Virus record (IMG/VR): IMGVR_UViG_3300032278_004258
Span: 1-43,860 of that record
Direction: 5' to 3' (one strand)
DNA from: a virus
DNA length: 43,860 nt
Shown here: in pieces, positions 4,479 through 42,660 of the stretch
How the letters are laid out: each line of letters starts with the position of its first letter
Position numbering within the stretch: position 1 is the first letter of the stretch
Translations under genes and position numbers: made by a program
Notes under the pieces: generated by a model
The model's input: only the letters and a program-made list of their open reading frames with translations
Told to the model about the DNA's origin: nothing
Databases searched by the model: none

Positions 4479-5783
4479 ATGGATGTGTATTACAACGAAT
4501 TCGATCCATTCGCCGTTGAATGGCTCCGATCTCTCTGTGAGAGAGCAGTCATTTCTCCCGGCCATGTTGACCCGAGGTCAATCAATGAGGTCAATCCAGA
4601 AGATCTTGCCAGCTTTCGCCGAGTCCACTTCTTCAGCGGCATCGGTGGCTGGGACCACGCCCTGCGACTCGCGGGATGGCCGGACGAATGGCCTGTCTGG
4701 ACCGGAAGCTGCCCCTGCCAGCCGTTCAGTGCCGCGGGGAAGCGACAAGGAACAGATGACGAACGACACCTCTGGCCAGAAATGCTGCGTCTCATCGCCG
4801 TCAATCTGCCTCCAGCAATCTTTGGAGAGCAGGTTGCGAGCAAGGCTGGGCGTGAATGGTTCGCCGGAGTACGTGCTGACCTGGAAACACTGGGATATGC
4901 CGTCGGGGGGGGCGATCTGTGCGCTGCGGGCGTCCAGTCGCCGCACATCCGGCAGCGACTCTACTGGGTGGCCTATCTGCACGGCTACAGATGGAAGACG
5001 ACGGGGAAGTGTCAATCAGCTTCCGAGCGCCAATGGCTGGAAGAGGGCGAGCGGAGCGAATGTCGGCTCAACCTTGAACAATGCAGTTGCCGGAATCACG
5101 GGATGGCCTTCCCCGCGAGCGGCGGACAGCCAGGGCGGCATGGAACCACCGGGAGTAACGGGCCGGAAGTTGCAGACTGTTGCGGGATGGGCAACGCCTC
5201 GAGTCTCGACGAACGGCGGATACGGCAATGCGGAGAGAACGGGAAACGCACGGCTCGAGGATCAGGTTGCCGGCTGGAACACGCCGCGGGCGACGGACGG
5301 AACGCACGGCGGTCCGAATCAGACGGGGGGATCACTTCCAGCGGATGCGGCACTGGCCGGATGGTCGACATGCAGCAGCCGGGACTGGAAGGACACGGCT
5401 GGCATGTCGACCATCGCGACGAACCCAGACGGAACGACGCGCATTCGCATGGACCAGCTGCCGAGGCAGGTACATGGGACCGCTGCGACCTCGTCGACTG
5501 CCGCGACGGGAAACGGCGGCGGGTCCCGGAATCTGAATCCGGCGTTTTCCCGCTGGCTTATGGGTTTCCCCGCAGCCTTCGACCACTGCAGTCCCGGCTG
5601 GAAGGAATGGGACACAAGCCAGCAGCAGCTCGAAGGCTGCTCCGGCAACCAAGAAGCGTTCTTGCAGCTGCTGGAAGAAACCGTGTCGGTCGCCTGAAAG
5701 GCTACGGAAACGCGATCGTTCCTCAGCTCGCGGCCGAATTTATTCGAGCCTGCATCGAAGTACTCAAGGAGCCAAACGCATGA
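4479..5783 (+). CDS. C5-cytosine DNA methyltransferase
   Basis: This 434-residue protein starts with the typical phage opening YYNEFDPFAVEWL. Motif I is FFSGIGG (51-57), motif IV GSCPCQPFSAAG with the catalytic Cys80, motif VI FGEQV (about 115-119) and motif VIII SPHIRQRLYWVAY. C-terminal motif X is RLKGYGNAIVPQLAAEFI. It should methylate C5 of cytosine in duplex DNA, either protecting phage DNA from host restriction or modifying host DNA. The frame is open back to 4422, but ATG 4479 gives the family N-terminus and follows the zinc protein stop. The middle (about 165-380) is low-complexity and is the part overlapped by a second coherent frame. The ParB-like gene overlaps by 4 nt. Confidence 0.9.
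   Translation: MDVYYNEFDPFAVEWLRSLCERAVISPGHVDPRSINEVNPEDLASFRRVHFFSGIGGWDHALRLAGWPDEWPVWTGSCPCQPFSAAGKRQGTDDERHLWPEMLRLIAVNLPPAIFGEQVASKAGREWFAGVRADLETLGYAVGGGDLCAAGVQSPHIRQRLYWVAYLHGYRWKTTGKCQSASERQWLEEGERSECRLNLEQCSCRNHGMAFPASGGQPGRHGTTGSNGPEVADCCGMGNASSLDERRIRQCGENGKRTARGSGCRLEHAAGDGRNARRSESDGGITSSGCGTGRMVDMQQPGLEGHGWHVDHRDEPRRNDAHSHGPAAEAGTWDRCDLVDCRDGKRRRVPESESGVFPLAYGFPRSLRPLQSRLEGMGHKPAAARRLLRQPRSVLAAAGRNRVGRLKGYGNAIVPQLAAEFIRACIEVLKEPNA
4483..5697 (+). CDS. Overlapping +1-frame protein within the C5 methyltransferase gene
   Basis: A 404-codon open frame lies +1 to the methyltransferase and nearly inside it. It does not look random. It has LTWKHWDMPSG, then regularly repeated tryptophan blocks (TGWPICTATDG, TGWPSPRAADS, AGWATPRVS, AGWNTPRATDG, AGWSTCSSRDWKD), and ends with LNPAFSRWLMGFPAAFD. 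I recall proteins with the same blocks in many phages, usually next to or annotated as methyltransferases. No function is known to me. It may be a genuine dual-coded protein, or conservation imposed by the methyltransferase frame. The start is uncertain; internal starts are possible. Confidence 0.4.
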   Translation: MCITTNSIHSPLNGSDLSVREQSFLPAMLTRGQSMRSIQKILPAFAESTSSAASVAGTTPCDSRDGRTNGLSGPEAAPASRSVPRGSDKEQMTNDTSGQKCCVSSPSICLQQSLESRLRARLGVNGSPEYVLTWKHWDMPSGGAICALRASSRRTSGSDSTGWPICTATDGRRRGSVNQLPSANGWKRASGANVGSTLNNAVAGITGWPSPRAADSQGGMEPPGVTGRKLQTVAGWATPRVSTNGGYGNAERTGNARLEDQVAGWNTPRATDGTHGGPNQTGGSLPADAALAGWSTCSSRDWKDTAGMSTIATNPDGTTRIRMDQLPRQVHGTAATSSTAATGNGGGSRNLNPAFSRWLMGFPAAFDHCSPGWKEWDTSQQQLEGCSGNQEAFLQLLEETVSVA

Positions 5784-9891: not shown

Positions 9892-11301
9892 GTGGCGACG
9901 AGCTATCAATCCTTTCTCTCCACAAAGCATATTCGGCATCAGGCCACGGGATTTGACCTCGTGTCGGAATTGCCGGCGAAGATGTGGGACTGGCAGTGTC
10001 GGGTCGCTGAGTGGTGTTGCCGCAAGGGCCGGGCGGCGATCTTTGCCGACTGCGGTCTGGGCAAGACGATCATGCAGTTGGCCTGGTGCGACCAGGTGCG
10101 ACAGTTGACTCGGAAGCCGGTGCTGCTGCTGACGCCGATTGCGGTGGGACCGCAGACGGTTCGCGAGGCGGAGACGTTCGGCGTTTCTGGTGTTCAGCTG
10201 GCGAAAGACGACAGCAATGTGACCAGGCCGGGCATCTACGTGACCAACTATCATCGCCTTGCCAAGTTCGACCTGAGTCGCTTTGCCGGCGTCTGCCTCG
10301 ACGAATCATCCATCCTAAAATCGTTCACGGGGGCGACCAAGCGCCAGCTTTGTGAGGGCTTTGCCGACACGCCCTACAAGCTGGCCTGCACGGCGACTGC
10401 GGCGCCCAACGATCACATGGAGCTCGGCAATCACTCGGAGTTTCTCGGAGTGATGCCGTCCAATGAGATGCTGAGCCGTTGGTTCATCAACGACACCATG
10501 AAGGCCGGTGGCTATCGTCTGCGAGGTCACGCTCGCGACGACTTCTGGCGCTGGGTTTCCAGCTGGGCGGTGTGCATTTCCCTGCCTTCGGACGTGGGTG
10601 GCTCGGATGGCGGTTACCGGCTGCCGGAACTTGTTCTCCATAAACACATCATCGAGGACGACACCGTTCCTCCCGGGCATCTGTTCAAGCCGGCCCAGGC
10701 AACCGTCTCGGCGACGAACGTGCACGAGATCAAACGTCAGGGCCTGGCCGCGAAAGCGAATCTCGTGGCTGAGATTGTGAATCCGTCCACGGAGGCCTGG
10801 TCCATCTGGTGCGACACCGATTACGAGGCGGATGCGTTACGGAGGACTGTTGAAAACTGTGTTGAAGTTCGAGGCTCAACTCGGGAGGACTTGAAGGTCG
10901 ACTTCTTTGAAGGGTTCACTTCGGGTCGGCACTCCCGGCTGATCACCAAACCGGAGATTGGCGGCTTCGGCATGAACTGGCAGCACTGCCGAAACACCTG
11001 CTACTTCGCCGGCTTCTCGTTTGAAAAGTGGTACCAGGCGATCCGTCGCCACTATCGCTTCGGACAGACGCAAGACGTGAACGTGCACCTGATTGCGACT
11101 GATGCGGAGGTGCCTGTTATTGAAACACTCGAACGCAAGAGTCGCGATCACCTCGCCATGCAGCGGGCGATGAGCGAAGCGATGCGAGAGGGGCTGCAGG
11201 AAGAGATCTTTGGCAAAGAACTGAAACCCTATCGACCAGTAATGGCAGCGACGCTGCCTGCCTGGTTGACACGAAAGGAGCCTCGCAGTGTTGCAATGTG
11301 A
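9892..11301 (+). CDS. SNF2-like DNA translocase
   Basis: This 469-residue protein carries SF2/SNF2 motifs: Walker A DCGLGKT, motif Ia LLLTPIAVGPQ, motif II LDESS (a DExx variant), motif III CTATAAPND and motif VI RHYRFGQT. The spacing and the lack of extra domains match the compact phage SNF2 helicases found next to DNA methyltransferases. Start GTG 9892 follows CAGGAG. It overlaps the methyltransferase gene by 14 nt, indicating translational coupling and probably a shared job in DNA modification, remodelling or replication fork handling. Confidence 0.85.
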   Translation: MATSYQSFLSTKHIRHQATGFDLVSELPAKMWDWQCRVAEWCCRKGRAAIFADCGLGKTIMQLAWCDQVRQLTRKPVLLLTPIAVGPQTVREAETFGVSGVQLAKDDSNVTRPGIYVTNYHRLAKFDLSRFAGVCLDESSILKSFTGATKRQLCEGFADTPYKLACTATAAPNDHMELGNHSEFLGVMPSNEMLSRWFINDTMKAGGYRLRGHARDDFWRWVSSWAVCISLPSDVGGSDGGYRLPELVLHKHIIEDDTVPPGHLFKPAQATVSATNVHEIKRQGLAAKANLVAEIVNPSTEAWSIWCDTDYEADALRRTVENCVEVRGSTREDLKVDFFEGFTSGRHSRLITKPEIGGFGMNWQHCRNTCYFAGFSFEKWYQAIRRHYRFGQTQDVNVHLIATDAEVPVIETLERKSRDHLAMQRAMSEAMREGLQEEIFGKELKPYRPVMAATLPAWLTRKEPRSVAM

Positions 11302-12280
11302 CCACCAGACCATCACGGACGACTACACCCTCTTCAATGGCGATTGCGTGGAAGTCCTCTCCGGACTCCCGGACGAGTCGATCGACTTCGGTATTCACTC
11401 GCCCCCCTTCTCGAATCTCTACATCTATTCCGATTCCGAGCGGGACATGGGGAACTGTTCCAGCGACGCGGAATTCATTGAACACTACAGCTTCCTGATT
11501 CGGGAGCTCTTCCGCACGACGGTGACCGGCCGGTTGTGTGCAGTACACTGCAAAGACCTGCCGATGTACGCGAATCGCGACGGCACGGCTGGACTGATCG
11601 ATTTCCCCGGCATGATCATCGCCGCGTTCGAGCGGCACGGCTGGGCTTTCCATTCGCGAGTGACGATCTGGAAATGCCCGGTGACCGAACGGGAACGAAC
11701 CAATAACAACGGCCTCCTGCACAAGACGGTGCTGCGGGATCGCTCGCAGATTCGTCAGGGGATGGCCGATTACCTGCTCGTGTTTCGGAAGCCTCCAGCG
11801 GGAACGTTGATGTCGCCGAAACCGATCCTCTTCGATGGGCCGCACGAAACCGAGGGAGGCTTTCATTTCTACATTGGCTCCTGCGATCCGCGGGACGGTG
11901 TCGAACATCCCAGTAAGTACGCCCGCAAACCGAAGGATTCGATGGCGACCTCCGTGCGGATCTGGCAGCGATATGCCGAGCCGGTGTGGTGGGACATCGA
12001 TCAGACCAATGTTCTGAACTACAAGCCGGCCCGGGCCGCGGAGGATGAACGCCACATCTGCCCGCTGCAGCTGGATGTGATCGAGCGAGCCGTGCAGCTC
12101 TGGAGCGAGCCGGGCGATGTGGTCTGTTCGCCCTTCGCCGGGATCGGCAGCGAAGGTGTTGGAGCCTTGAAACTGGAACGCAAGTTCCTCGGCGTCGAAC
12201 TGAAGCCGGAGTACTACGAATGGGCGATTCGGAATCTGAACGCCCAGGCCGACATGAACCGGCAGAAGCGGTTGTTTTAG
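11288..12280 (+). CDS. Beta-type DNA amino-methyltransferase (N6-adenine or N4-cytosine)
   Basis: This 330-residue protein has motif IV as SPPF near the N-terminus (FGIHSPPFSNLYIY) and motif I near the C-terminus (SPFAGIGSEGVGALKLERKF), the circularly permuted beta order of N4/N6 methyltransferases. SPPF resembles SPPY/SPPW of N4-cytosine enzymes, so N4-mC is plausible, but N6-mA cannot be excluded. The middle region (about 100-220) should hold target recognition. Start GTG 11288 lies 7 nt after AGGAG, inside the end of the SNF2 gene. Confidence 0.88.
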   Translation: MLQCDHQTITDDYTLFNGDCVEVLSGLPDESIDFGIHSPPFSNLYIYSDSERDMGNCSSDAEFIEHYSFLIRELFRTTVTGRLCAVHCKDLPMYANRDGTAGLIDFPGMIIAAFERHGWAFHSRVTIWKCPVTERERTNNNGLLHKTVLRDRSQIRQGMADYLLVFRKPPAGTLMSPKPILFDGPHETEGGFHFYIGSCDPRDGVEHPSKYARKPKDSMATSVRIWQRYAEPVWWDIDQTNVLNYKPARAAEDERHICPLQLDVIERAVQLWSEPGDVVCSPFAGIGSEGVGALKLERKFLGVELKPEYYEWAIRNLNAQADMNRQKRLF

Positions 12281-24777: not shown

Positions 24778-25231
24778 TCTCGAACGCGACGGGCAGTACC
24801 GTCCGGACCGTCATCGCGACCGTCCGGACGAGGATCTTGCTATTGTCGTCACGGGGGAACCGGAACTGCTCGCAGGCAGTTGCGATAACCTCGCCAAGGT
24901 CGCCTTCAACGCCCTTGTGGAGTCACTGCCGCCTGGGGCTGTCGGGGCCGCCGATTCAATGGGGCTCACGGTCTTGGCGACGACGTGGTCTCGCTGGCTA
25001 CTCCTTTCGAGTCGACTCGACGAGTTGTCTCTCGTGCCGGAGTCGGACGATTACAACCGAGTCTTCCGGCAGGTCCTCGACTGCGAAAAGCAGATCCGCC
25101 AGTTTTCGGGCGAGTTTGGCCTGACCCCGAAGAGTCGAACGCAGATCAAACTGCAAATGATCCAGGCCAGCGAGAAGAAGTCGGCAACAGAGGAGATTGA
25201 CGAACTTCGCGATGAACTCGATCAAGACTAA
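24761..25231 (+). CDS. terS: Terminase small subunit (P27-type)
   Basis: This 156-residue protein begins at GTG 24761 within the HNH tail (overlap 17 nt). The C-terminal block EKQIRQFSGEFGLTPKSRTQ is the P27 small-terminase signature (GLTPxSR). It recognises phage DNA and brings TerL to it. The frame is open to 24674 but that part duplicates HNH sequence in another frame. It overlaps terL by 20 nt. Confidence 0.9.
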   Translation: MKTKADLERDGQYRPDRHRDRPDEDLAIVVTGEPELLAGSCDNLAKVAFNALVESLPPGAVGAADSMGLTVLATTWSRWLLLSSRLDELSLVPESDDYNRVFRQVLDCEKQIRQFSGEFGLTPKSRTQIKLQMIQASEKKSATEEIDELRDELDQD

Positions 25232-27023
25232 GTATCACGGCACGCTAAAGCTCAAGAACCAGGCGTTCCGGGACTACCTGTCGCAGGTCGAGCGATATAT
25301 GGAGGACGTGCTTGAAGGCCGCGTCTCGGTCTGTCGCTATGAGCGGCTCGCCGTGCAGCGGCATGTCAACGATCTGCAGCGAACTGACGATCGCTACTAC
25401 TTCAGTGCGAACATCGCCGCCTATCACGTCCACCTGTTCCCTGCCCTGCTCACTCACCAGACAGGCGGATTCAAGAACAAACCGTTCTATCTGTGCGGGT
25501 TCCAGGCGTTCATCGTCTGGGTTCTCTTCGGGTGGCGTCGCTCGGACAGTAAAATGCGACGATTCAAGGAAGCGTACCTTGAGTTCGCTCGAAAGAACGG
25601 CAAGACCGCTTTCGCAGCCGGCGTCGCAGAAGGACTGACGGGCTGGGACTTCCCTCACGAGGCCCGAGCTGAATCTTATTTCGCCGCCACCAAAGAAGCC
25701 CAGGCTAAGCTGTGCTGGGATGAGTGCTGGCGATTCATCCGCTACAACAAAGAAGTCCGCGACGACTTCAAGATATTGACGGCGTCGCATACGATTCGCC
25801 ACAAGCCGACCGATGCCATTCTCCGCTACGAGGGGTGTGACGGCACCACGCTCGACGGCCTGAATCCGAGCCTCGCCGTCTTCGACGAGCTGCACGAGTG
25901 GAAGGCAATGCATCGCACGCTGATGGAGAAACTGCAGACCGGCTCCGGGATGCGGCAGCAGCCGCTCTTCATCTACATTACCACCGCTGGCCATGAAGAC
26001 TCCGAAGTCTGGCTTGAGGAGAGATCCCACTCAACCAGCATCCTCGACGGCACGAAGTCTGACGATCAGCGATTCGCTATGATCTGCGCGATCGATCCAG
26101 AGGACGATCCGTTCCTGGAACGGCAGGAGCCGGAGCCCTCGCTGAAGGAGTACGAGGAGTTCCTGCAGTCGCCGAAATTCTATGACATGTGCCGGAAAGC
26201 GAATCCGACACTTGGCGAAGTCTGCCGCCTCGATTCTATCCAGGATCAGTGTAGGAAGGCATTCGGCCGCAAAGAAAAACGTCGGGAAGTGCTGCGGTAT
26301 CAGTTCAACCGCATGGTCTCGCCGACAGATCACTACATCGCTCCCGAAGACTGGAAGTCCGGCGACCTGCTCGTCGAAGTCGAAGAGGGCGACTGGGGCT
26401 GCGGCGGGGTGGACCTTGCCCGCAGCGACGACTTCGCAGCGGCAAGTTTCGTGTTTCCGCTGGAGATCGAAGAGGACAAGCTCGAGTTTCACATCATCTC
26501 GCGATCATGGACATGCCGCGAAACCTCAGTGGACCTGACGCAGGAGCCATTCCTGACCGCGATTCGAGAAGGGAATCTTGTTGTCTGCGAGGGAGATCAG
26601 ATTGATTACTCACTCATTCGCGACTTTGTTGTCGAAATGTGTAGTAAACACGACATCTGCTCTGTGGCCTACGACCCTGCGTTTGCGAGGGAAACAGCCC
26701 AGATCCTCCAGGACGAGCATCAAATCAATGTCTTCTACTTCGGTCAGTCTCCGAAGCATTACAACGAGCCGATGCGGAACTTCAGGCGGGACGTCAAGCT
26801 CGGCAAGATCGTTCATGGCGGGGAACCGCTCCTCGCCTGGCAGGCGAACAATCTGATCATGCGAATCAACGCAATGGATCAGTGGATGCCGGACAAGCGA
26901 ATCTCTCGCGGGAAGATTGACGCGATGGTCGCCACGCTCATGGCCTACTCTGAGTGCAAGTACAACGAGAAGGCTCGTCCAAGCTTCTTCCGGGGAAACT
27001 TTAGCATCAAGCTGGGTGGCTGA
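25212..27023 (+). CDS. terL: Terminase large subunit
   Basis: This 603-residue protein has an ATPase domain with Walker A-like ARKNGKT (about 124-130), Walker B LAVFDELHEW and a coupling segment (FIYITTAGHE). The RNase H-like nuclease domain shows GVDLARSDDFAA, SVAYDPAFARE and a late Asp in KIDAMVATLMAY. It translocates DNA into the prohead and cuts concatemers. ATG 25212 is preferred over TTG 25197. It belongs to the Terminase_1/HK97 group by sequence order. Confidence 0.95.
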   Translation: MNSIKTKYHGTLKLKNQAFRDYLSQVERYMEDVLEGRVSVCRYERLAVQRHVNDLQRTDDRYYFSANIAAYHVHLFPALLTHQTGGFKNKPFYLCGFQAFIVWVLFGWRRSDSKMRRFKEAYLEFARKNGKTAFAAGVAEGLTGWDFPHEARAESYFAATKEAQAKLCWDECWRFIRYNKEVRDDFKILTASHTIRHKPTDAILRYEGCDGTTLDGLNPSLAVFDELHEWKAMHRTLMEKLQTGSGMRQQPLFIYITTAGHEDSEVWLEERSHSTSILDGTKSDDQRFAMICAIDPEDDPFLERQEPEPSLKEYEEFLQSPKFYDMCRKANPTLGEVCRLDSIQDQCRKAFGRKEKRREVLRYQFNRMVSPTDHYIAPEDWKSGDLLVEVEEGDWGCGGVDLARSDDFAAASFVFPLEIEEDKLEFHIISRSWTCRETSVDLTQEPFLTAIREGNLVVCEGDQIDYSLIRDFVVEMCSKHDICSVAYDPAFARETAQILQDEHQINVFYFGQSPKHYNEPMRNFRRDVKLGKIVHGGEPLLAWQANNLIMRINAMDQWMPDKRISRGKIDAMVATLMAYSECKYNEKARPSFFRGNFSIKLGG

Positions 27024-27025
27024 CC

Positions 27026-28660
27026 TTGATCACAAAACTCGCCTCACGGAATCCTGCTCTCGACCACTTCGCCAGCGAATGCCGCCGCGAGCCCCTTGGA
27101 CATCCCAGCAATCTGAATGCCTCCGACTTCTTCATGTACTCGCCCACTGCGGCGAATGTGGAAGTGACTGAGGCCGTTGCCCTCAACTATTCCGCAACCT
27201 GGGCGGCGACGTCCTTGCTGTGTTCACTTTCCGGCATCCTTCGACTGTCTGTCTGGGCGCCGCAAAAAAAGAGCCGCACGCTCAAGCCTTCTCAGGAGCA
27301 CGACGTCAGCCAGCTGCTTCGCCGGCCGAATAACGCGATGACGCCCTATGACGTGAAGGCTCTCATGACGCGGGGGCAGGTCAACGCCGGCAATGGATAT
27401 GCCGAGATCGTTCGGGATGGCCGCGACAATCCAGTCAGCATCCTGCCGATCCGTCCGCACCGGGTGACTCCGCGCATTCTTCGAGAGCCACTCAATGGCT
27501 TCGACAAGGGCGACCTCGTCTACGAGGTATCATTTGACGAGGATGATCGATCGCTGTATCGCAAGTCGGCCGAAGACTCGAGTTCCGTCATGCTCCACTC
27601 GCGTGACGTGCTCGACTTCCGCTCCAAGCTGACGCACGAAGGAATTACAGGGCTTGGCGTCATCAGCTACGCTCGCGAGTCCATCGGCCTCGGTATTCAG
27701 GCGGAACGGTTTGGGGCCAAGTACTACGGCCGCGAGGGAATGCCGAAGATTATCATCAATGTCCTGAGCCGGATGAATGAAGCCGCTCAGCGAGACTTCC
27801 GGAAGCAGTGGAAGGATATCTACGGGCAGAACAGCAACCCGGAAGACATCGCGATCCTGCCGGATGGCGAGGCCAAGATTCACGTCCTCGATTTGAATCC
27901 GAATGATGCTGATCTGCTCAATACGCGAAAGTTTACCGTGGAGGAGATCGCCCGCTGGTATGGTGTCCCGCCGTACCTCCTGCAGCTGATGATCAACTCT
28001 GGTAGTGTCAGCCTGGAGCAGCTCGGCGTCGAGTTCGTCAATTACTCTCTCATGCCCTGGCTCTGCCGGCAGGAGGAGGAACTGGAAGCCAAGCTGCTGT
28101 CGCCGGAAGAGCAGCGAGAGGGGTTCCGGATTCGATATGACGTCGACAATCTCCAAAAGGGCGACCTGGCCAGCCGTGTCTCTGCGTACTCGAAGATGAT
28201 GCAGTACGGCTTCACGCTGAACGAGGTCCTCGAGAAGGAGGGGCTCCCTCCAATCGGCCCGGAAGGCGATGTGCGGTTCTTTCCGTCAAACATGACGACG
28301 CTCGACTCCGTCATCAAGGGGACAAACCTGAAGGCGATGCAGCGGACCGGTCAAAATACAGATGGCCGGAACACGGACCGCAAAGACTCCGATGACCCGG
28401 ACCCGCAGAACGTCGCCCAGGATGCCGAGTCGAAAACGGCTCAAGCCTGGATGGAGCGGATTCAGCAGCGATTCAATTACAAGGCGGCTCAGGCTGTCGA
28501 GAAGATGCGGAATCGCCGGGAGTCCTTCGCATCTGTTCGCGAGTTCTACGCCAAGCACACATTGCAGCACCAGGAAGAGGTCAGCCATATTCCTGACTGC
28601 GATGTAGTGATTGATTATTCGGCCGTACTGGCTGATCTGGAGAAAGAGTGGCCACGATGA
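27026..28660 (+). CDS. Portal protein (HK97 family)
   Basis: This 544-residue protein has the phage-portal core: VALNYSATWAATSLLCSLSG, GNGYAEIVRDG, LGVISYARESIGLGIQAERF, and the conserved FTVEEIARWYGVPPYLLQLM with LEQLGVEFVNYSLMPWL. It forms the dodecameric channel at one capsid vertex. The C-terminal 100 residues are charged and helical. Start TTG 27026 is 2 nt after the terL stop; a later start cannot be excluded. The protease start overlaps its stop. Confidence 0.95.
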   Translation: MITKLASRNPALDHFASECRREPLGHPSNLNASDFFMYSPTAANVEVTEAVALNYSATWAATSLLCSLSGILRLSVWAPQKKSRTLKPSQEHDVSQLLRRPNNAMTPYDVKALMTRGQVNAGNGYAEIVRDGRDNPVSILPIRPHRVTPRILREPLNGFDKGDLVYEVSFDEDDRSLYRKSAEDSSSVMLHSRDVLDFRSKLTHEGITGLGVISYARESIGLGIQAERFGAKYYGREGMPKIIINVLSRMNEAAQRDFRKQWKDIYGQNSNPEDIAILPDGEAKIHVLDLNPNDADLLNTRKFTVEEIARWYGVPPYLLQLMINSGSVSLEQLGVEFVNYSLMPWLCRQEEELEAKLLSPEEQREGFRIRYDVDNLQKGDLASRVSAYSKMMQYGFTLNEVLEKEGLPPIGPEGDVRFFPSNMTTLDSVIKGTNLKAMQRTGQNTDGRNTDRKDSDDPDPQNVAQDAESKTAQAWMERIQQRFNYKAAQAVEKMRNRRESFASVREFYAKHTLQHQEEVSHIPDCDVVIDYSAVLADLEKEWPR

Positions 28661-29577
28661 AGTTCGAATTGAATGATCTGATCGCCCCGCTAGGAACGGT
28701 TGCAGCCCGTGCCGACGACGATATCTGGATGGCCTACTTCGCTGCCGGCAAGCTGCAGGCCAGAACGAGGTGGCATGTCTCAGTTCGAGGCGAAGTGGCT
28801 GTTGTCCCGCTTCAGGGTGCGATAATCCGCGGCATGGGGCACTATGGAACGGACCCTGACGATTTCCGGAGAGCCGTCAACGCCTCGGCAGCGAATCCTA
28901 AGATTAAGCAGATCCTCCTGTATGTCGACAGTCCCGGAGGTGCCCTTCCCGGCGTTGAACTGGCGGCCCAGGCAGTCTATGCGGCTCGGCAGGTAAAGCC
29001 GGTCGTTGCCATTACCAGCGACTATAATTGCTCCGCCGCTCTGTGGATCTCGTCGCAGGCCAGCAGAGTCTATTCGACTCGCGACGGCTGGACAGGTTCG
29101 CACGGTGTCTTTCGCCAACACGTCAGTTTCGCCAAGGCGGCCGAACAGGCGGGAGTCGAATGCACGTTCATTCATGCCGGAAAGTTCAAGGTCGAGGGCA
29201 ATCTCTGGCAACCGCTCTCTGAGGAAGCGAAGTCGCACTGGCAGCAGTGTGTCAACGACACGTTCGCCGAGTTCACGGCCGCACTTGCCCGGGGCCGCGA
29301 GAAATCAACGGAGCACATCATGCAGCACTTCGGCCAGGGCCGTTCATTGACGGCTCAGCAGGCGTTGAGTGCAGGGATGATCGACGAGATTGTCGAGTCC
29401 GATCAGGTTCTGGCAAAGATGCATGGCTCATCGGGCCTTGTCGCCGTCAATGAACAGCTGACTCGCGACCTGCTCTGCGAAATTTCCGGCGACTCGCCTC
29501 AACAAAGTTCGACTTCGAGTCGACAGATTTACTATCAGAAGAAACTGAAAGTCCGCGAGCGGGAGATTGCCTCCTGA
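28657..29577 (+). CDS. Head maturation protease, S49 (SppA-like)
   Basis: This 306-residue protein matches S49 phage proteases: AVVPLQGAIIRG, ILLYVDSPGGALPGVELAAQ, the nucleophile region YNCSAALWISSQA, and GKFKVEGNLWQPL with the general-base Lys. A serine/lysine dyad should process scaffold and capsid precursors. ATG 28657 overlaps the portal stop (ATGA); GTG 28648 is 3 codons upstream. The tail after residue 270 is disordered and may hold scaffold function. Confidence 0.92.
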   Translation: MKFELNDLIAPLGTVAARADDDIWMAYFAAGKLQARTRWHVSVRGEVAVVPLQGAIIRGMGHYGTDPDDFRRAVNASAANPKIKQILLYVDSPGGALPGVELAAQAVYAARQVKPVVAITSDYNCSAALWISSQASRVYSTRDGWTGSHGVFRQHVSFAKAAEQAGVECTFIHAGKFKVEGNLWQPLSEEAKSHWQQCVNDTFAEFTAALARGREKSTEHIMQHFGQGRSLTAQQALSAGMIDEIVESDQVLAKMHGSSGLVAVNEQLTRDLLCEISGDSPQQSSTSSRQIYYQKKLKVREREIAS

Positions 29578-29658
29578 CCGACTTTCCCAGCCGTTGCTGG
29601 TCGCTTTAATTATCCGGGCCGTTGCCCTTCGCTCCTACCAGAAGGAAGTGGCAACACT

Positions 29659-30966
29659 ATGCCCAAGCTGCACGAACTCAAAGCTGAACGCGCTCAGCTC
29701 TTCGAACGCCAGAAGGAGATCCTGAAGGCCAGCGAAGAGACTGGCTTCACTACTGAAGACGAAGCCAAGTTCGACGAGATCGACGCCGACATCGAGAAGC
29801 TCGGCGATCAGATCGAACGCATCGAAAAGATGAGCTCTCGCGTTGCGGAACGCGGCAAGGTGCTGGCGGGAGCCAACTCTCGCACGCAGGATTTCTATGT
29901 CGATCACAGCGACCTCGCCGACGAGGCCGAGGAAGAGGCGAACGATCTGTTTGCCAAGGTCGACATGTTTAGCCGCAGCTCCGAGCTGGAACGCATCTCC
30001 GTTAGTCCGGCCAACAAGGCGATGCGAGCCGCATTCGACAAGTGGATGAGCACCGGGTCCATGGCGGCCATGCAGCACACTCGCCAGGGCGAGGGTGGCT
30101 ATCTGGTGATGCCCGAACAGTATGTCGCTCGGCTGATTCAGAACGTGGACGACATGGTCCAGATTCGCAAGCTGGCTACCATCATTCCGCTCACGTCCGC
30201 GGCGTCGATCGGCGTCCCCACGCGGGAAACCGACCTGAACGACGCGGACTGGACCTCGGAGATTGAAGAGGTCCAGGAGGACGAAGGGCTGACCTTCGGC
30301 AAGCGGAAGATGCAGCCGCGCCCGCTCTCCAAGCTGGTCAAGATCAGCCGCGACCTGATGAAGATCGCCGCCCTCAATCCGGAGGCCTTGCTGCGTCAGC
30401 GACTGTCGCACAAGTTCGGAGTCACCGAAGAAAAGGGCTTCATGATCGGCTCTGGCAACGAGCAGCCTCTCGGTCTGTTCACGGCCAGCGACGACGGAAT
30501 TCCGACGTCGCGCGATGTCGCGACGGAGAACGGAGCCACGGCTCTCACTCCGGAAGGCCTGATCAATGCCAAATACTTCCTCAAGCCGCAGTACATGATG
30601 TCGAAGTCTCTCCGGTGGATCTTTCACCGGGATGCGATCCGCAATCTCCGCAAGTTGCGGTACGGCGAAAACGACGAGCATTTTGTCTGGAAGCCGGGCC
30701 TGAAAGACGAGCCCGACACCATTCTGGAAGTGCCGTACATCATGAGCGAGTACTGCCCGAACACGTTCACGGCCAATCAGTATGTCGGGATTCTCGGCGA
30801 CTTCAGTTACTACTGGATCGTCGAGGTCATGAAGCTCGAAGTGCAGCGGCTGAACGAACTGTTCGCCAAAACCAACCAGGTCGGCTTCATCGGTCGGGCC
30901 TGGCTCGACGGAGCCCCGACGTTGGCCGAAGCCTTCGTGCGGGTCCAGCTTGGCTCCGGTGGCTGA
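29659..30966 (+). CDS. Major capsid protein (HK97 fold)
   Basis: This 435-residue protein has an N-terminal helical delta/scaffold domain (about 1-100, KLHELKAERAQLFERQKEIL) followed by a capsid domain: GGYLVMPEQYVARLIQN, LATIIPLTSAASIGVPTRE, GSGNEQPLGLFTASDDGIPT and AWLDGAPTLAEAFVRVQL. The length and order match HK97-type coat proteins, with the protease encoded upstream. An 81-bp gap with CCAGC-CGTT-GCTGG precedes it, and AAGGAAG serves as ribosome site. Confidence 0.95.
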   Translation: MPKLHELKAERAQLFERQKEILKASEETGFTTEDEAKFDEIDADIEKLGDQIERIEKMSSRVAERGKVLAGANSRTQDFYVDHSDLADEAEEEANDLFAKVDMFSRSSELERISVSPANKAMRAAFDKWMSTGSMAAMQHTRQGEGGYLVMPEQYVARLIQNVDDMVQIRKLATIIPLTSAASIGVPTRETDLNDADWTSEIEEVQEDEGLTFGKRKMQPRPLSKLVKISRDLMKIAALNPEALLRQRLSHKFGVTEEKGFMIGSGNEQPLGLFTASDDGIPTSRDVATENGATALTPEGLINAKYFLKPQYMMSKSLRWIFHRDAIRNLRKLRYGENDEHFVWKPGLKDEPDTILEVPYIMSEYCPNTFTANQYVGILGDFSYYWIVEVMKLEVQRLNELFAKTNQVGFIGRAWLDGAPTLAEAFVRVQLGSGG

Positions 30967-31050
30967 TTCCTTGTTGTGAACCATCCGGGGAGTTCGCTCA
31001 CCGGTCTCTTTGATGTCCTGATTATTCGGTTCAGTGAAGGAACCTCAGCA

Positions 31051-31506
31051 ATGATGAAACGCGATGGAGCTTCGAACATGCAGCCTGTCGTTTCCTGTGT
31101 CGGGAACGCGATCGGCACGTCCGGAGCGGGAGTTGAAGTAACGGGCTTGCCGGTTAGCACGGCGGGCTTCGGAGAAGTGACTTGCGTCTTGGCGACGGCA
31201 GTACTCGGCGATGCCGATGTCGTGATTACGCCAGTGATCGAAGAATCAGACACGCTCGTCGACGCTGACTTCTCTGCGGTCTCGGATGACGATCTCGTCG
31301 GACTCGAAGGCTCGCTCAATTTCGCCGATGACCTGTCGACTCGCAAGATCGGCTACGTCGGCAAGAAGAAGTACATCCGCATCAATTGCACGCCAACCGG
31401 GACGGCGGATGCAAACCCGACCACGTTCATGGGGCTGGTGATTCTCGGCTCGCCGCGACTCGCTCCGGTGGCCCAGGAACACGCCAACACCCTGACTGCC
31501 TCCTGA
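31051..31506 (+). CDS. Post-capsid conserved phage protein (possible decoration)
   Basis: This 151-residue protein lies directly downstream of the capsid gene. It contains FGEVTCVLATAVLGDADVVI and TRKIGYVGKKKYIRINCTP, a block I recall in many siphophage proteins encoded after the capsid, of the small beta-rich type. ATG 31051 has AAGGAACC upstream; the frame is open to 30976 but without a good site. Decoration or head completion is plausible; not proven. Confidence 0.6.
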   Translation: MMKRDGASNMQPVVSCVGNAIGTSGAGVEVTGLPVSTAGFGEVTCVLATAVLGDADVVITPVIEESDTLVDADFSAVSDDDLVGLEGSLNFADDLSTRKIGYVGKKKYIRINCTPTGTADANPTTFMGLVILGSPRLAPVAQEHANTLTAS

Positions 31507-31533
31507 TACGCAACCCGTGATGTGAGGTGGATG

Positions 31534-31569
31534 GACCCCCAGCGGCAATCGAGGCGGCCGCTGGGGGTC
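31534..31569. terminator. 13-bp perfect hairpin downstream of the capsid operon
   Basis: GACCCCCAGCGGC pairs with GCCGCTGGGGGTC around AATCGAGGCG. There is no T-run after it (ATTGCC). It may attenuate transcription between the abundant capsid genes and the connector genes. Confidence 0.55.
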
Positions 31570-31592
31570 ATTGCCTGAAGGATGAAAGCTCT

Positions 31593-31973
31593 ATGAAGGT
31601 TCGTTTGCTCAAACAGTCCGTTTGTCAGCTGGGAGTCTTCCCGGTCAGCAGCACTCCCGACATCCCTGAAGAGCTGGCCAGCCAGTGGATTCGCGATGGC
31701 GTCGCCGAGGCGGTCAGTCCCGGCCGATCGTCGATCGAGGCAAATGGGCCCGCCCCGAAACCCGGCCAGCCGACGACGGAAGGACCGGTCACGGAACCGG
31801 AAGAAGAACACGCCCAGGCAGCTGAAGGACCCGCTCTGAAACCCGGCCAGCCGACGACGGAAGGACCGGTCACGGAACCGGAAGAAGAACACGCCCAGGC
31901 AGCTGAAGAACCCGCTCTGAAACCCGGCCAGCCGACGACGGAAGAAAAGAGGCCGCGTCGCCGCAAGGCCTGA
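31593..31973 (+). CDS. Short head-module protein with 27-residue tandem repeat
   Basis: This 126-residue protein has an N-terminal third (MKVRLLKQSVCQLGVFPVSS, DIPEELASQWIRDGVAEAV) that resembles the small proteins following phage capsid genes. After residue 50 it is disordered and repetitive: two full copies and one partial copy of KPGQPTTEGPVTEPEEEHAQ plus seven residues, then basic KRPRRRKA. The DNA repeat unit is 81 bp. Confidence 0.65.
   Translation: MKVRLLKQSVCQLGVFPVSSTPDIPEELASQWIRDGVAEAVSPGRSSIEANGPAPKPGQPTTEGPVTEPEEEHAQAAEGPALKPGQPTTEGPVTEPEEEHAQAAEEPALKPGQPTTEEKRPRRRKA
31757..31945 (+). repeat. 81-bp tandem repeat, 2.3 copies
   Basis: Units start at 31757, 31838 and 31919 (GAAACCCGGCCAGCCGACGA each time). 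The first two units differ only near position 71 (GGACCC versus GAACCC), so the duplication is very recent. Unit length is a multiple of three, keeping the frame. Confidence 0.95.
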
Positions 31974-32024
31974 CAGCTTTCGCCGACTTGCTTCAATTTC
32001 CTCCAGATACAACTTAGGGGCAAT

Positions 32025-32387
32025 ATGCACACGCAAATCAACTCCCACAAAACTCCGGGGCTTAATAGCGAACTGGACATCGCGGTTCTCGATGGACCAG
32101 GACAGGGAGGTGCCTGTCATGAGTACCACATCATCAATTGCGAGCAAGGCGTCCACGCGGTTATCCGGTTCCAGAATGGGCCAATCGAAGAGAACGGCAT
32201 CAACGGAATCACCAATGAGTCACTCCTGGCCGTCGTAGAGCATCGACTGCAGGGTTTTCAGTCTGGTCAGTTCGCCTGCCGTGAAAACGCCGTCGCTCTT
32301 ACGAAGCTGCAGGAGGCCATGATGTGGCTCCAGAAGCGAACTCGCGATCGCCTCGCCCGTGGCGTGGAAGGCTCAAGCCAGCAATAG
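32025..32387 (+). CDS. Tad1/Acb2-like signal-sequestering protein (candidate anti-defence)
   Basis: This 120-residue protein contains RFQNGPIEENGINGITNE, LLAVVEHRLQGFQSGQFACR, then ENAVALTKLQEAMMWLQKRT and a terminal RGVEG. This matches my memory of the hairpin-domain family shared by the anti-Thoeris protein Tad1 and the anti-CBASS protein Acb2. Those proteins form oligomers that bind and sequester gcADPR or cyclic oligonucleotides. The length fits Tad1 (about 120). It stands between the capsid and connector genes behind ATG 32025. Assignment is by recalled motif, not by search. Confidence 0.65.
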   Translation: MHTQINSHKTPGLNSELDIAVLDGPGQGGACHEYHIINCEQGVHAVIRFQNGPIEENGINGITNESLLAVVEHRLQGFQSGQFACRENAVALTKLQEAMMWLQKRTRDRLARGVEGSSQQ

Positions 32388-32412
32388 CCTCGCCCTCGCC
32401 TACCGCCAAATC

Positions 32413-32424
32413 CCTAACGCCTGA
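32413..32424 (+). repeat. Intergenic motif CCTAACGCCTGA
   Basis: Copy of the repeated CCTMACGCCTRA element, 9 nt before the head-tail connector start. The other copies are also immediately upstream of genes. Confidence 0.55.
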
Positions 32425-32432
32425 ATCCATCC

Positions 32433-33086
32433 ATGCCCGTTAAGCAGGTTAACAGCCAGAACTACTGGGGAAACACCCAGGCTCACGTGACGACGAGCTA
32501 TCGTCTGACCGGCGATCCTGTGGAGTTCCTCGTCGTTTCGCTGTCGGAAGTGAAGGCCAACCTGCGAATCACGTGGGAGGATGAAGACGCCCTCCTGCAG
32601 TCGTACATCGCAATCGCCGAATCGATTGTGCAGGAAGACTTGCCGGAAGTTGTGTTTCGCGAGGTCGCGATGGAGCTGACGCTGGACGAGTTTCCCAGCG
32701 AGATTCAGATTGCCCGCCTGCCGGTGCAGTCGATCGAGTCCGTCACGTACTTCGACTTGGACAACGCAGAGCAGACGCTGACGGCCGACGAAGATTTCCA
32801 CGCCGATCTCAACTCATTCCCGGCCCGACTCTGGTCCACGGCCGATCTCAATCGCGGCGTTCGTTTCTGGCCCGACGTGAAGCAGAGGCCCGGAGCAGTC
32901 GCAGTGGCCTTCACGGCGGGCTACGCCTCCGCGTCCGATGTTCCGCTCTGCTATAAGCAGCTCCTGCATCTCTGGGTGGGGCATCTCTACAAGAACCGCA
33001 CGCCAGTTGAGCAGGGCCGGCCGTCCGCGGTCCCCTACACCCTGGAATATCTGACGCAGATGCTGAGAAAGCGGAGGCTCGGATGA
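32433..33086 (+). CDS. Head-tail connector (gp6/phiE125 gp8-like)
   Basis: This 217-residue protein has VVSLSEVKANLRITWEDEDA, LLQSYIAIAESIVQEDL, the phiE125 gp8-type alpha-helical opening, and a tail FTAGYASASDVPLCYKQLLH with WVGHLYKNRTP. It is an adaptor between portal and tail. It lies in the conserved order connector, closure, gp10, completion. The next gene overlaps by 4 nt. Confidence 0.85.
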   Translation: MPVKQVNSQNYWGNTQAHVTTSYRLTGDPVEFLVVSLSEVKANLRITWEDEDALLQSYIAIAESIVQEDLPEVVFREVAMELTLDEFPSEIQIARLPVQSIESVTYFDLDNAEQTLTADEDFHADLNSFPARLWSTADLNRGVRFWPDVKQRPGAVAVAFTAGYASASDVPLCYKQLLHLWVGHLYKNRTPVEQGRPSAVPYTLEYLTQMLRKRRLG

Positions 33087-33427
33087 ATCCAGGAAAATAC
33101 CAGGATCTGATCATCGTCCAGACGGCCGGAACGGAGATCGGCGACAGCTACGAACAGACGCCCATTTACACCGACGGTCCGCAGTTTTGGGCTGAAGTCA
33201 AATTGCTCGGCGGATTTGAGATCGCCGAGAACATGATCATGCGGGGGCAAAATCAGTATCGCGTCCGCTGCGAATGGAATCCGATCGCCGCGGGACTGAA
33301 GACTGATCAGCGGCTCAAGCTGGCCCATCGTGACAACGCCATCCTGAACATCACCTCAATGCCGGAAGACATCGACGGCAACCGCGGCCGGATCGAGTTC
33401 GTCGCCGAAAGGCTCGAACATGATTAA
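33083..33427 (+). CDS. Head closure protein (SPP1 gp16-like)
   Basis: This 114-residue beta-rich protein opens with MNPGKYQDLIIVQT and has FWAEVKLLGGFEIAENMIM, YRVRCEWNPIAAGLKTDQRL and GRIEFVAERLEHD. This is the typical pattern of head-tail joining proteins that close the portal. ATG 33083 overlaps the connector stop, and its end overlaps the next gene by 8 nt. Confidence 0.8.
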   Translation: MNPGKYQDLIIVQTAGTEIGDSYEQTPIYTDGPQFWAEVKLLGGFEIAENMIMRGQNQYRVRCEWNPIAAGLKTDQRLKLAHRDNAILNITSMPEDIDGNRGRIEFVAERLEHD

Positions 33428-34103
33428 GACAACGGTCATCAAAATCGACACGCCAAACTTCACGCTTATCAACTCGGAGATCGTGAAGGGGCTCGGCACG
33501 GCCTCCCAGCGGGTCATGCTGCGGAAGTCGGCCGTGGCTCTCAAGCCACGATATACGCCTTTGGTCAAGCTCGCTCGCACGGCCTACTCCAGCGGGTTCG
33601 GAAAACGCTCTGGAACGCTGGCCCGCGCCTTCGGCCTCAAAACCTGGTCAGCCAAACGGGGATCGCCACGAGCGGCCTTGATCTTCGGCGTGAACGACAA
33701 AAAGGGGCGTTCGCGATTCCAGTCCTGGCAGCAGAAGGCGAGAAACCGCTTCATTGAAGTTATGGGCGGCGATTATCCGCTGCCTCGCCGCCTGAGTGAT
33801 CCCAATTTTCACAAGCCATCCAAGATCCTGCATCTCGTCGACAACTCCGTCAAATCGCACACGATCCGACCCAAGTACAAAAAGGTCCTCGCGGCTCCTG
33901 AACAGGGCGAGGGGGCACTCTGGCCGGTTTCCCGAAATTCCGGTGGCTGGACAGGACGGGGCGTGCTGCCTCGCATCCGCAAGAAGGGCGAAGACATCGC
34001 CCGGCGTCGGCAGCCAGCCGCCTTCAATAAGGCGTTTGAGCAGGAAGTCGGCAAGAAGCTGAAGTCAGCCTATCGCAGTGCAGCCAGAACGACCGCGTCA
34101 TGA
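33420..34103 (+). CDS. HK97 gp10-like neck/tail completion protein
   Basis: This 227-residue, strongly basic protein with KSAVALKPRYTPLVKLARTA and RSGTLARAFGLKTW fits HK97 gp10-like neck proteins in position and composition. It is longer than the usual 130-160 residues; the central insert (about 95-170, with Trp and Pro) appears particular to this phage. It probably helps join the tail to the head. Confidence 0.7.
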   Translation: MIKTTVIKIDTPNFTLINSEIVKGLGTASQRVMLRKSAVALKPRYTPLVKLARTAYSSGFGKRSGTLARAFGLKTWSAKRGSPRAALIFGVNDKKGRSRFQSWQQKARNRFIEVMGGDYPLPRRLSDPNFHKPSKILHLVDNSVKSHTIRPKYKKVLAAPEQGEGALWPVSRNSGGWTGRGVLPRIRKKGEDIARRRQPAAFNKAFEQEVGKKLKSAYRSAARTTAS

Positions 34104-34525
34104 GCGTAACAGCAGCCCTCGTCCATCGCCTCCTGCAGTTGCCGAGCCTGACTGATCTTGTCGGCACGAAAATCGGGCGTGACCAGGCTCCATCCAGCTG
34201 GGGCGGCCAAGAACCTTACATCGTCGCCCAGGGGGAAGGCGGAACTTTCCAGTTCCATGCGAGTGGAGTTGCCCGGCCGACGGAGAGTCGACTGGAGATC
34301 GAGATCTACTCGACGAACGCAGCCACGGCCGACGCCATCCAACAAGTCATTATGAATCCCGCCAACGGCATCAACCTCGGTACCTGGACCGCCAAGGGCA
34401 TCTTCGTTCAACGGTTCATGGTCGACGGTGACAGCCACAACACAGCCGCCGAAGTTGGCGGTAAACACCACCGGGACTCACAGCGAGTCCTGAGTTGCAC
34501 AGCCTGGTGGGAGGAGGCGGTATGA
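34100..34525 (+). CDS. Tail completion protein (DUF3168-like)
   Basis: This 141-residue protein starts MSVTAALVHRLLQLPSLTDL, typical of the DUF3168 tail terminator family, and continues with RLEIEIYSTNAATADAIQQV and an Arg/Trp-rich end. Start ATG 34100 overlaps the gp10-like stop. This protein should cap the tail tube and set length with the tape measure. Confidence 0.8.
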   Translation: MSVTAALVHRLLQLPSLTDLVGTKIGRDQAPSSWGGQEPYIVAQGEGGTFQFHASGVARPTESRLEIEIYSTNAATADAIQQVIMNPANGINLGTWTAKGIFVQRFMVDGDSHNTAAEVGGKHHRDSQRVLSCTAWWEEAV

Positions 34526-34707
34526 AGCCCGTAACGCTCAAGTTCACCACCAAAGGAGGCCATGAAGGCGAGCTCGAAGTCGCCGAGCTGCTGAGCGTGG
34601 ACGGCATTCCGTACGCCGGGCCTGACCTGGACACCGGGGAACGTATCTGTCGGCTCGAAGGGGCCGTTGACCTGATTCTGGGACTGCTCCGAGGAGAAGA
34701 GGAATAA
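34522..34707 (+). CDS. Small unknown tail-module protein
   Basis: This 61-residue protein at ATG 34522 overlaps the previous stop by 4 nt and ends directly before the tube gene. Sequence: beta-like start (VTLKFTTKGGHEGELEVAEL), then DTGERICRLEGAVDLIL. No family recognised. Its fixed coupling suggests a chaperone or a stoichiometric partner of tail proteins. Confidence 0.55.
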   Translation: MKPVTLKFTTKGGHEGELEVAELLSVDGIPYAGPDLDTGERICRLEGAVDLILGLLRGEEE

Positions 34708-35112
34708 ATGTCGCAATCGACAGGAACTATTGGTTACGGGTGCGGTGTCACGTTTGGCACCACCGGGGGCACTTACGAAGTGCTCAGCATTCGAGATGCT
34801 CTCACGCGAGCCGAAATCGACCTGACGCACTCCGCGTCGCCCAACAAGTCGAAAGAATACGGGGCGGGACTGGCCGATACTCGGGTCTTCGATATCGAAC
34901 TGATCTATCGCCGAGGCGAATACGCCACGCTCTACAACGGGACCATCGGCCCGGTGGAGACGATCACATTCACGATTCCCAACCCGGGCGGCACGGACGA
35001 ATCCATCCCGATCGAAGGCTTCATCACCAACCTCGGCACGGAGATCCCCGTCGAAGACCGGATGACGCGAACGGTTACGGTCCGGGAAACGCATCGTCCT
35101 GACGTTGCATAA
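34708..35112 (+). CDS. Major tail tube protein
   Basis: This 134-residue beta-rich protein has TIGYGCGVTFGTTGGTYEVL and RAEIDLTHSASPNKSKEYGA, DIELIYRRGEYATLY. This matches the small tail-tube proteins of lambda/HK97-like phages in length and position, immediately before the frameshifted chaperones. The start codon follows the upstream stop with no spacer. Confidence 0.85.
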   Translation: MSQSTGTIGYGCGVTFGTTGGTYEVLSIRDALTRAEIDLTHSASPNKSKEYGAGLADTRVFDIELIYRRGEYATLYNGTIGPVETITFTIPNPGGTDESIPIEGFITNLGTEIPVEDRMTRTVTVRETHRPDVA

Positions 35113-35133
35113 GTAATAATCGCGATAATCGCC

Positions 35134-35163
35134 GCCCTCACTGGCGATAACGCCAGTGAGGGC
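35134..35163. repeat. Intergenic hairpin repeat, copy 4
   Basis: GCCCTCACTGGC pairs with GCCAGTGAGGGC around GATAAC: a 12-bp stem, the longest of the four copies. The shared 8-bp core is 35137-35160. It lies between the tube and chaperone genes. Confidence 0.9.
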
Positions 35164-35181
35164 GTTCCTGAAAGCACTGCA

Positions 35182-35679
35182 ATGATTGGCTTCGGAAAAT
35201 CGAAGAACGTCACCCGAAAGGATCTCTTCGGGAAATTGCCCGACGAATTCGCTCTCTGCGAAGAGTGGGTCGAGATCGAAGGGCTCGGCCGACTGCTGAT
35301 CCGCGAGATGGACTCCGGGCAGCGGGACGAATGGGAGTGGATGCTGGCCAATCGCCAGGTGGCTCGGCTGACGCCCCAGCAGAAGGAATACCATAAGCTT
35401 GACCGGGATCAGATTCCGGATCCGCGCGGGCTCAAGGCATTTGTGATCTCCTGCTGCGTCATCGACCCTACGACGCAGTCTCCGATGTTCCCTCTGGGCG
35501 ACAGGGAAATTGACCGCCTCCCCAGCGGGCTGGTGACTCAGCTCTACTGGAAGTGCCTGGAAGTCTGTGGCCTTCGCGAGGCTGACTACGAGGACGCAAA
35601 AAAAAACTCCGCGACAACCCCAGCCTCCGACGACGATTCTGGCTCGCCGCCCGCTGGGGACGAACCATTGTCGAGCTGA
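35182..35679 (+). CDS. Tail assembly chaperone, G-type (zero-frame product)
   Basis: This 165-residue protein (ADxSGQRDEWEW-like acidic helix, LDRDQIPDPRGLKAFVISCC, LYWKCLEVCGL) occupies the position of the lambda gpG chaperone between tube and tape measure. Near its end is a run of nine A at 35598-35606, after which the zero frame becomes a disordered Ser/Pro tail. It probably binds the tape measure during assembly. Confidence 0.8.
   Translation: MIGFGKSKNVTRKDLFGKLPDEFALCEEWVEIEGLGRLLIREMDSGQRDEWEWMLANRQVARLTPQQKEYHKLDRDQIPDPRGLKAFVISCCVIDPTTQSPMFPLGDREIDRLPSGLVTQLYWKCLEVCGLREADYEDAKKNSATTPASDDDSGSPPAGDEPLSS
35598..35607 (+). promoter_or_regulatory. -1 programmed ribosomal frameshift site
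   Basis: Zero-frame codons read GCA AAA AAA AAC. Both A-AAA-AAA and A-AAA-AAC heptamers fit X-XXY-YYZ. Slipping by -1 enters an open frame that continues to 35927 without a stop. Confidence 0.75.
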
Positions 35680-35927
35680 GAACCGGCCGGATCGGTGAGC
35701 CGATGGGTTCCCGGGAATGGACGTTCTGGCTCGCTTACATGGACATGTACCCCTGGGGAGATGACTGGGAGCAGGCTGCGATGGTGGCCTGGTCCGGAGT
35801 GGCTCCGCACACGAAACGAACGTGTCGCATTGATGAGTTTCTGCCGACGGGCATGCGTTCCGAGCAGACTCTGAGTCGGGCAATGACACCAGAGCAGATC
35901 AAAGCCGTGCTTGTGGGCCGAAAGTAA
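35607..35927 (+). CDS. Tail assembly chaperone T-type extension (-1 frame)
   Basis: After a -1 shift, translation yields FWLAARWGRTIVELRTGR and EWTFWLAYMDMYPWGDDWEQ, like the T domain of lambda GT proteins (LAxxxGRTVxEL... then WxAYYxxEPWG). The fused product would be 248 residues from 35182. An internal ATG at 35703 could produce a 74-residue form, but the coding signal starts well before it, which favours frameshifting. The tape measure gene follows 4 bp later. Confidence 0.75.
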   Translation, partial: LRDNPSLRRRFWLAARWGRTIVELRTGRIGEPMGSREWTFWLAYMDMYPWGDDWEQAAMVAWSGVAPHTKRTCRIDEFLPTGMRSEQTLSRAMTPEQIKAVLVGRK

Positions 35928-35930
35928 GAC

Positions 35931-38963: not shown

Positions 38964-38966
38964 CGC

Positions 38967-39488
38967 ATGGAAAAGATCGGTGTCTTTCCACTGGAGTTCG
39001 CCCGCAAGGCGAAGAAGCACCTGGAACGCCAAATGCGGGACGGGGGTGCGGAAACGCCCCGTCAGCCTCGCACCTCAAGCGGCCGGCAAGCAAAGTGCAT
39101 GTCCTACTGGCACATCTGGTTGCAGCGTGACGTCGGCACGCTGGCAGGCGAGCTGCCGCTCGATATTCACACATTGAACGAAGATGACCAGCGATCGGTG
39201 ACGACGATCTCAATACCGTGGAACGCCGATGACGAGATCGTCAAGGATCTCTTGCGGCACATCCCCGACCTGGGAGACGGTAACGATGATGGCGACGCCA
39301 CGAACGACAAGTTCACAGTCGAAGGGCACTGGCCCTTCGTTGCCTTCAAGATTTCAAACAAGTCGGCCACTGGCCCCAGAATCCGCGTGATACGCGGAAA
39401 CGAGGGCGGCCATTCGATCGTCGCCGCGTATCCGCACATCATACCCGTCGTGTTCAATGGTGACGAAGGTGCAGGAGTCGAGCCATGA
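38967..39488 (+). CDS. Hypothetical tail-module protein
   Basis: This 173-residue protein has a basic N-terminus (EFARKAKKHLERQMRDGG) and an acidic middle rich in Asp (LGDGNDDGDATNDKF). The second half is beta-like. No family recognised. Its stop overlaps the next start (ATGA). Confidence 0.5.
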   Translation: MEKIGVFPLEFARKAKKHLERQMRDGGAETPRQPRTSSGRQAKCMSYWHIWLQRDVGTLAGELPLDIHTLNEDDQRSVTTISIPWNADDEIVKDLLRHIPDLGDGNDDGDATNDKFTVEGHWPFVAFKISNKSATGPRIRVIRGNEGGHSIVAAYPHIIPVVFNGDEGAGVEP

Positions 39489-41105: not shown

Positions 41106-41186
41106 TCTGCTGTTCCTTCAACGGGGATCGCGATTTCTGTCCGAGATGATCCGGATTGTACAGGTTAGACGACGAAGAGGGGAGCA

Positions 41187-41195
41187 TGCTATGAT
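41187..41195 (+). promoter_or_regulatory. Extended -10 element upstream of the zinc-ribbon gene
   Basis: TGC followed by TATGAT (41190-41195) is an extended -10 box. A partial -35, TTAGAC (41165-41170), lies 19 bp upstream. It would start transcription near 41202, leaving a short leader before ATG 41228. Confidence 0.45.
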
Positions 41196-41227
41196 GCCGA
41201 CGACCCACGGAAGACTCGGAGAGAACG

Positions 41228-41470: not shown

Positions 41471-41488
41471 AAATGCTGAACAAAAGAT

Positions 41489-42657: not shown

Positions 42658-42660
42658 GAC

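Follow-up and report, generated by a model that had tools for sequence, protein, structure and literature searches.

The methyltransferase gene and its frame 0 product

The gene considered here lies on the plus strand of a 43,860-nucleotide viral DNA (IMG/VR record IMGVR_UViG_3300032278_004258), referred to here as the window. Frame 0 of the gene encodes alpha, the catalytic subunit of a C5-cytosine methyltransferase (434 amino acids; 4479-5783); the frame may begin at TTG 4422 or, by homology, at ATG 4479 (MDVYYNEF...), and it ends at 5783. Alpha matches the Pfam family PF00145 (E 3e-16) and the PHROGs family phrog_363, labelled DNA methyltransferase (E 3e-70); in its AlphaFold model the catalytic domain is predicted with confidence, and fold comparison shows that the large domain resembles HhaI-type structures. 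As the sequence-only reading had proposed, frame 0 is that of a C5 methyltransferase with motif X at its end: motif I (4632), motif IV (PCQPFS, 4713), motif VI (GEQV, 4824), motif VIII (RQRL, 4950), and motif X (GYGNAIVP, 5700) occur in order on a methyltransferase fold. Motif IX is missing from the same polypeptide and is found in the +1 frame of the window. Nearly all of alpha residues 192-324 have a pLDDT <50 and form a predicted disordered stretch, in which frame 0 is unconstrained; across positions 4969-5532, the variable region of the gene, frame 0 encodes mostly low-complexity linker.

The protein encoded in the +1 frame

The +1 frame is free of stops over 404 codons (4483-5697), as noted earlier from the sequence. 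From its most likely start its product, beta, would have 370 amino acids (4585-5697, plus strand), comprising GW-x-TP-x-A-x-D cassettes and motif IX; stop avoidance, substitution patterns, and a match to phrog_1008 (E 5e-28) point to this protein. PHROGs labels phrog_1008 a DNA methyltransferase and lists it as a family separate from phrog_363, so that the two frames of the window gene match two distinct families. Beta matched no family in Pfam or NCBIfam, and no stand-alone copy of it was found. Its predicted fold had no match in the PDB, the model itself being poor (pLDDT 59, pTM 0.28), and a profile search against PDB sequences gave chance hits only. Within the AlphaFold model, blocks 71-120 of beta reach a pLDDT of 82-90 as a helix and two strands, and the remainder is poorly predicted; the confident segment (LQQSLESRLRARLGVNGSPEYVLTWKHWDMPSGGAICALRAS, 4798-4938) overlaps alpha motifs VI-VIII, where a mixed substitution pattern indicates that both frames are constrained. 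A hidden HNH-type endonuclease in the +1 frame was considered and rejected, no such family being matched.

The variable region (4969-5532) contains five GW-like cassettes in the +1 frame, beginning at 4969, 5104, 5188, 5275, and 5362. The sequence-only reading had described a regular series of GW blocks ending in LNPAFSRWLMGFPAAFD; the five blocks and LNPAFSRWLMGFPAAFD are present, but the protein does not end there and continues for 37 more residues. At 5533-5580, toward the C-terminus of beta, lies a segment (LNPAFSRWLMGFPAAF) with the pattern of motif IX of C5 methyltransferases; this stretch of DNA aligned to KLHPRECARVMGYPDSY of M.HhaI, weakly and through a frame 0 profile.

Relatives of the gene were gathered from viral contigs, by +1 patterns and by frame 0 patterns, and from bacterial genomes; the bacterial-genome set was located through the +1 motif and is therefore biased for that motif. 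Of 204 relatives, 196 have the motif IX pattern LNPxxSRWLMGxP in the +1 frame, 2 have it in frame 0, and 10 in the +2 frame; the spacing from motif IX to motif X is exactly 13 codons in most. Since motif IX lies in the +1 frame in nearly all relatives, alpha consists of motifs I-VIII and X, and beta supplies motif IX.

Constraint on the two frames

In the window alone, synonymous shuffling of frame 0 yields a +1 open reading frame of this length in about 1.4% of trials; the open frame is thus mildly unusual, which is suggestive but not decisive. Comparison with relatives decides the matter. In the 77 genes found by frame 0 patterns only, the interval from codon 45 to motif X contains 6 stops in the +1 frame versus 242 expected by synonymous shuffling, and the +2 frame shows no depletion (959 observed, 854 expected). 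Divided by region (95 genes), observed versus expected +1 stops are 144/111 from the alpha start to the beta ATG, 15/56 from the beta ATG to motif IV, 0/70 between motifs IV and VI, 0/67 between motifs VI and VIII, 0/92 in the variable region, 5/69 from the stretch before motif IX to motif X, and 119/67 from motif X to the end, with no comparable depletion in the +2 frame. Stops in the +1 frame are avoided only between approximately the beta ATG and motif X, and the data themselves therefore delimit the +1 coding region.

Substitutions were counted in frame-neutral blastn alignments; the pairwise counts reuse sequences and are not phylogenetically independent, but the majorities taken per gene agree with them. 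Mismatch rates at frame 0 positions 1/2/3 are.175/.174/.510 from the beta ATG to motif IV and.098/.112/.403 at motif X, in keeping with a position 3 peak that extends from the start through motif VI and returns from motif X onward. The variable region (.288/.157/.126; position 1 peak in 86 of 103 genes) and the interval from motif IX to motif X (.265/.154/.191; position 1 peak in 92 of 104 genes) peak instead at frame 0 position 1, which is position 3 of the +1 frame, so that constraint there falls on the +1 frame. The pattern is mixed across motifs VI-VIII and in the stretch ahead of motif IX, and the window's own gene shows the same regional differences. Selection at the protein level acts on both frames, and the regions in which it does so complement each other.

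Dcm-type monomeric methyltransferases served as controls (n = 9). They have 114 stops in the +1 frame versus 148 expected, position 3 peaks throughout, and motif IX in frame; a motif IX in frame together with an unconstrained +1 frame thus characterizes the controls but not the relatives of the window gene. The sequence-only reading had weighed two possibilities, a gene dual-coded over an unusual length and conservation imposed by a single frame; the former is correct. The opposite outcome that this reading had named, homologues with stops in the +1 frame and substitutions confined to frame 0 third positions, was looked for; the relatives keep the +1 frame open and their substitution peaks shift.

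The start of beta

A putative internal ribosome-binding site, GAGGT (4574-4578), followed by the proposed beta ATG (4585-4587) lies inside the alpha codons R-S-I-N-E (4574-4587, plus strand). The arginine codon of the D-x-R-S-I-x-D-V motif is AGG in 38 of 117 relatives versus a background of 6.5% (P = 4e-17), and a +1 ATG is found 9-12 nucleotides downstream in 37 of the 38 AGG relatives versus 36 of the 79 others (Fisher P = 7e-9). Where AGG is absent, about half of the relatives have no +1 ATG at the proposed site either, and the start of beta may differ among them. The alternative is an upstream +1 ATG (4483-4485), which overlaps the alpha ATG in the sequence ATGGATG (4479/4483); because +1 stops upstream of the 4585 site are not avoided in relatives (144 versus 111 expected), this ATG is the less likely start, and ATG 4585 is most likely the one used. 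Scans for promoters and terminators gave nothing above shuffled sequences, and neither did RNA folding around the beta start.

Exchangeable cassettes in the variable region

Most genes have 2-5 GW-x-TP-x-A-x-D blocks in beta. Single-linkage clustering of the cassettes at 50% identity chained them into one cluster, and a stricter clustering was used instead. Under the latter, one cassette family is present in 31 genes, where its position varies and it has 18 different predecessors and 14 successors; two copies of one cassette family never occur in the same gene. The cassettes are thus shared and reordered between phages and behave as exchangeable modules; the multispecific phage methyltransferases likewise have several modules located between motifs VIII and IX that can be exchanged among enzymes. 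By this analogy the cassettes may be target-recognition modules, a role put forward here only as a candidate, given the poor beta model, for which the PDB offers no match.

Distribution among phages, prophages, and plasmids

A second, distant and large phage subfamily (LNPxWVEWLMGxPxGWT) has the same organization: among 73 genes, nearly all found by frame 0 patterns for motifs I and IV but including five phage records, selected by way of the motif, which formed the query for the set, motif IX is in the +1 frame in 69 and the spacing between motifs IX and X is 13 in 68. Mismatch rates at positions 1/2/3 in the IX-X interval of this subfamily are.285/.102/.086, with a position 1 peak in all 69 genes.

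Named examples of the +1 layout include phages of Acinetobacter, Salmonella, Mycobacterium, and Synechococcus and prophages of E. coli, as well as plasmids of Leptolyngbya, Paenibacillus, and the archaeon Methanomethylovorans (35% GC). In Paenibacillus phage Leyra both overlapping genes are annotated, as cytosine methyltransferases; most other records inspected have a single annotated coding sequence. The two-frame build appears to be shared by hundreds of methyltransferase genes of phages and prophages whose annotation shows only one protein.

Several relatives deviate from the common layout. A gene of a Ca. Megaera plasmid (L362, 637-1659) has motif IX in frame 0 while its LPTP cassettes are still in the +1 frame and end before motif IX; it looks like a natural re-fusion of a split enzyme. 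Plasmid pAP1 of Paenibacillus polymyxa (L363, 233-1723) has two successive copies of motif IX in the +1 frame, with stops after the first. Komagataeibacter phage phiKX1 (L071, 1320-2951) and L095 (2-1486) have approximately 160-210 extra alpha codons between the +1 motif IX and motif X, and L029 (1-2668) contains a tandem pair of methyltransferase genes with a +1 match in each. In L019, L057, L084, and L097, indels interrupt or shift alpha and leave its N- and C-terminal parts in different frames; these may be pseudogenes or errors.

Comparison with known systems

M.EcoHK31I, with the target YGGCCR, is a two-polypeptide C5 methyltransferase; its large-subunit gene contains the coding sequence of the small subunit in another reading frame. 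The larger subunit contains motifs I-VIII and X and the smaller only motif IX, and the predicted target recognition domain has been assigned to the larger subunit (PMC3404938). The window gene has the same division, with motifs I-VIII and X in its large subunit and motif IX in the second polypeptide, and by motif layout it is of the split type; it differs in being phage-borne and in having a beta of 370 amino acids with a multi-cassette region under +1 selection. Cassettes in beta that carried all of the recognition would not fit the assignment of this domain to the larger subunit of M.EcoHK31I. No restriction enzyme was recognized near the window gene.

M.AquI, which targets CYCGRG, is another naturally split C5 methyltransferase. 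Its split is sequential, with motifs IX and X both in the smaller subunit (PMC3404938); the window gene resembles it in having motif IX in the smaller subunit but has motif X in alpha and beta inside the alpha gene. The multispecific C5 methyltransferases of Bacillus subtilis phages (M.SPR and M.phi3T type) have several short target-recognizing modules between motifs VIII and IX. These enzymes are single polypeptides read in one frame, whereas the module-like array described here is in a second frame, and the likeness is one of layout.

There is also a precedent for a phage methylase gene that conceals an out-of-frame protein: the ShiLan domain, an HNH endonuclease within the methylase of an actinophage (PMC11855218). 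In contrast to that domain, a homing insertion of some phages, beta is kept in nearly all relatives, lacks an HNH domain, and includes a methyltransferase motif. Searches of the literature for the two-frame layout in phages turned up no report.

A probable split methyltransferase encoded in overlapping frames

Very probably the gene encodes, in overlapping frames, both subunits of a split C5-cytosine DNA methyltransferase of the M.EcoHK31I kind, a reading taken to include the cassettes, the assembly, and the role of the enzyme. Alpha would bind AdoMet and provide catalysis through motifs I-VIII and X. Beta, most likely translated from its own internal ribosome-binding site and ATG 4585, would bring the parts of the small domain, namely motif IX and the row of exchangeable cassettes. 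Assembly of the two subunits would give an active enzyme for the methylation of phage or host DNA, in which every cassette would serve as one target-recognition module; the role of the enzyme would probably be to protect against restriction. The second protein, for which the sequence-only reading knew of no explanation, can be explained by its motif IX and the M.EcoHK31I architecture.

That beta is instead an independent overlapping gene, for example for an anti-restriction protein or a regulator, whose function lies outside the methyltransferase reaction, would suit its lack of Pfam, NCBIfam, and PDB fold matches but is unlikely, given that beta holds the motif IX absent from frame 0 at a fixed 13-codon spacing to motif X, that PHROGs places it with methyltransferases, and that no stand-alone copy was found. 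Programmed ribosomal frameshifting could alternatively produce one fused polypeptide (motifs I-VIII, cassettes, and motif IX) rather than two proteins; the order of the motifs along the DNA is indeed that of a monomer, and one plasmid relative has motif IX back in frame 0. A second shift would be required to reach motif X, however, and the +1 frame is open far upstream of the needed shift, from approximately the internal ATG, a site with an enriched AGG plus an ATG, which makes frameshifting quite improbable. An artefact, in which the +1 frame is open and conserved-looking merely through the composition and conservation of frame 0, is consistent with the window alone (P ~0.014 for so long an open reading frame given the frame 0 protein) but is refuted by the stop avoidance across relatives and the reversed codon-position rates, with the clean Dcm controls also against it.

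The gene exemplifies an old and widespread overlapping pair with divided work, in which alpha dictates the 5' part and motif X, and beta dictates motif IX and the variable region. If the split-enzyme reading holds, a required subunit would be absent from databases for many annotated cytosine methyltransferases of phages, and a recoded clone of the annotated open reading frame would destroy beta and could yield an inactive enzyme. It is fairly likely, on a broader view, that a substantial part of the cytosine methyltransferases of phages and prophages, now recorded as single proteins, are overlapping two-subunit enzymes whose recognition evolves by shuffling of +1 cassettes while the catalytic frame reads a tolerated disordered linker. 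Because cassettes can be removed or exchanged with alpha kept, the evolution of target specificity within an overlapping frame becomes directly testable.

Other features of the window

Genes for terminase, portal, protease, head, and integrase proteins lie at 25197-43860, and the window is from a tailed phage that is probably temperate. In bacterial genomes, the nearest matches to beta include some in Planctomycetes (Zavarzinella). At 11288-12277 on the plus strand lies a gene for a second predicted DNA methyltransferase (phrog_67), which has a helicase-family match at its C-terminus, and a 449-codon open frame on the minus strand (29635-30984) lies antisense to the major head protein gene (29659-30966).
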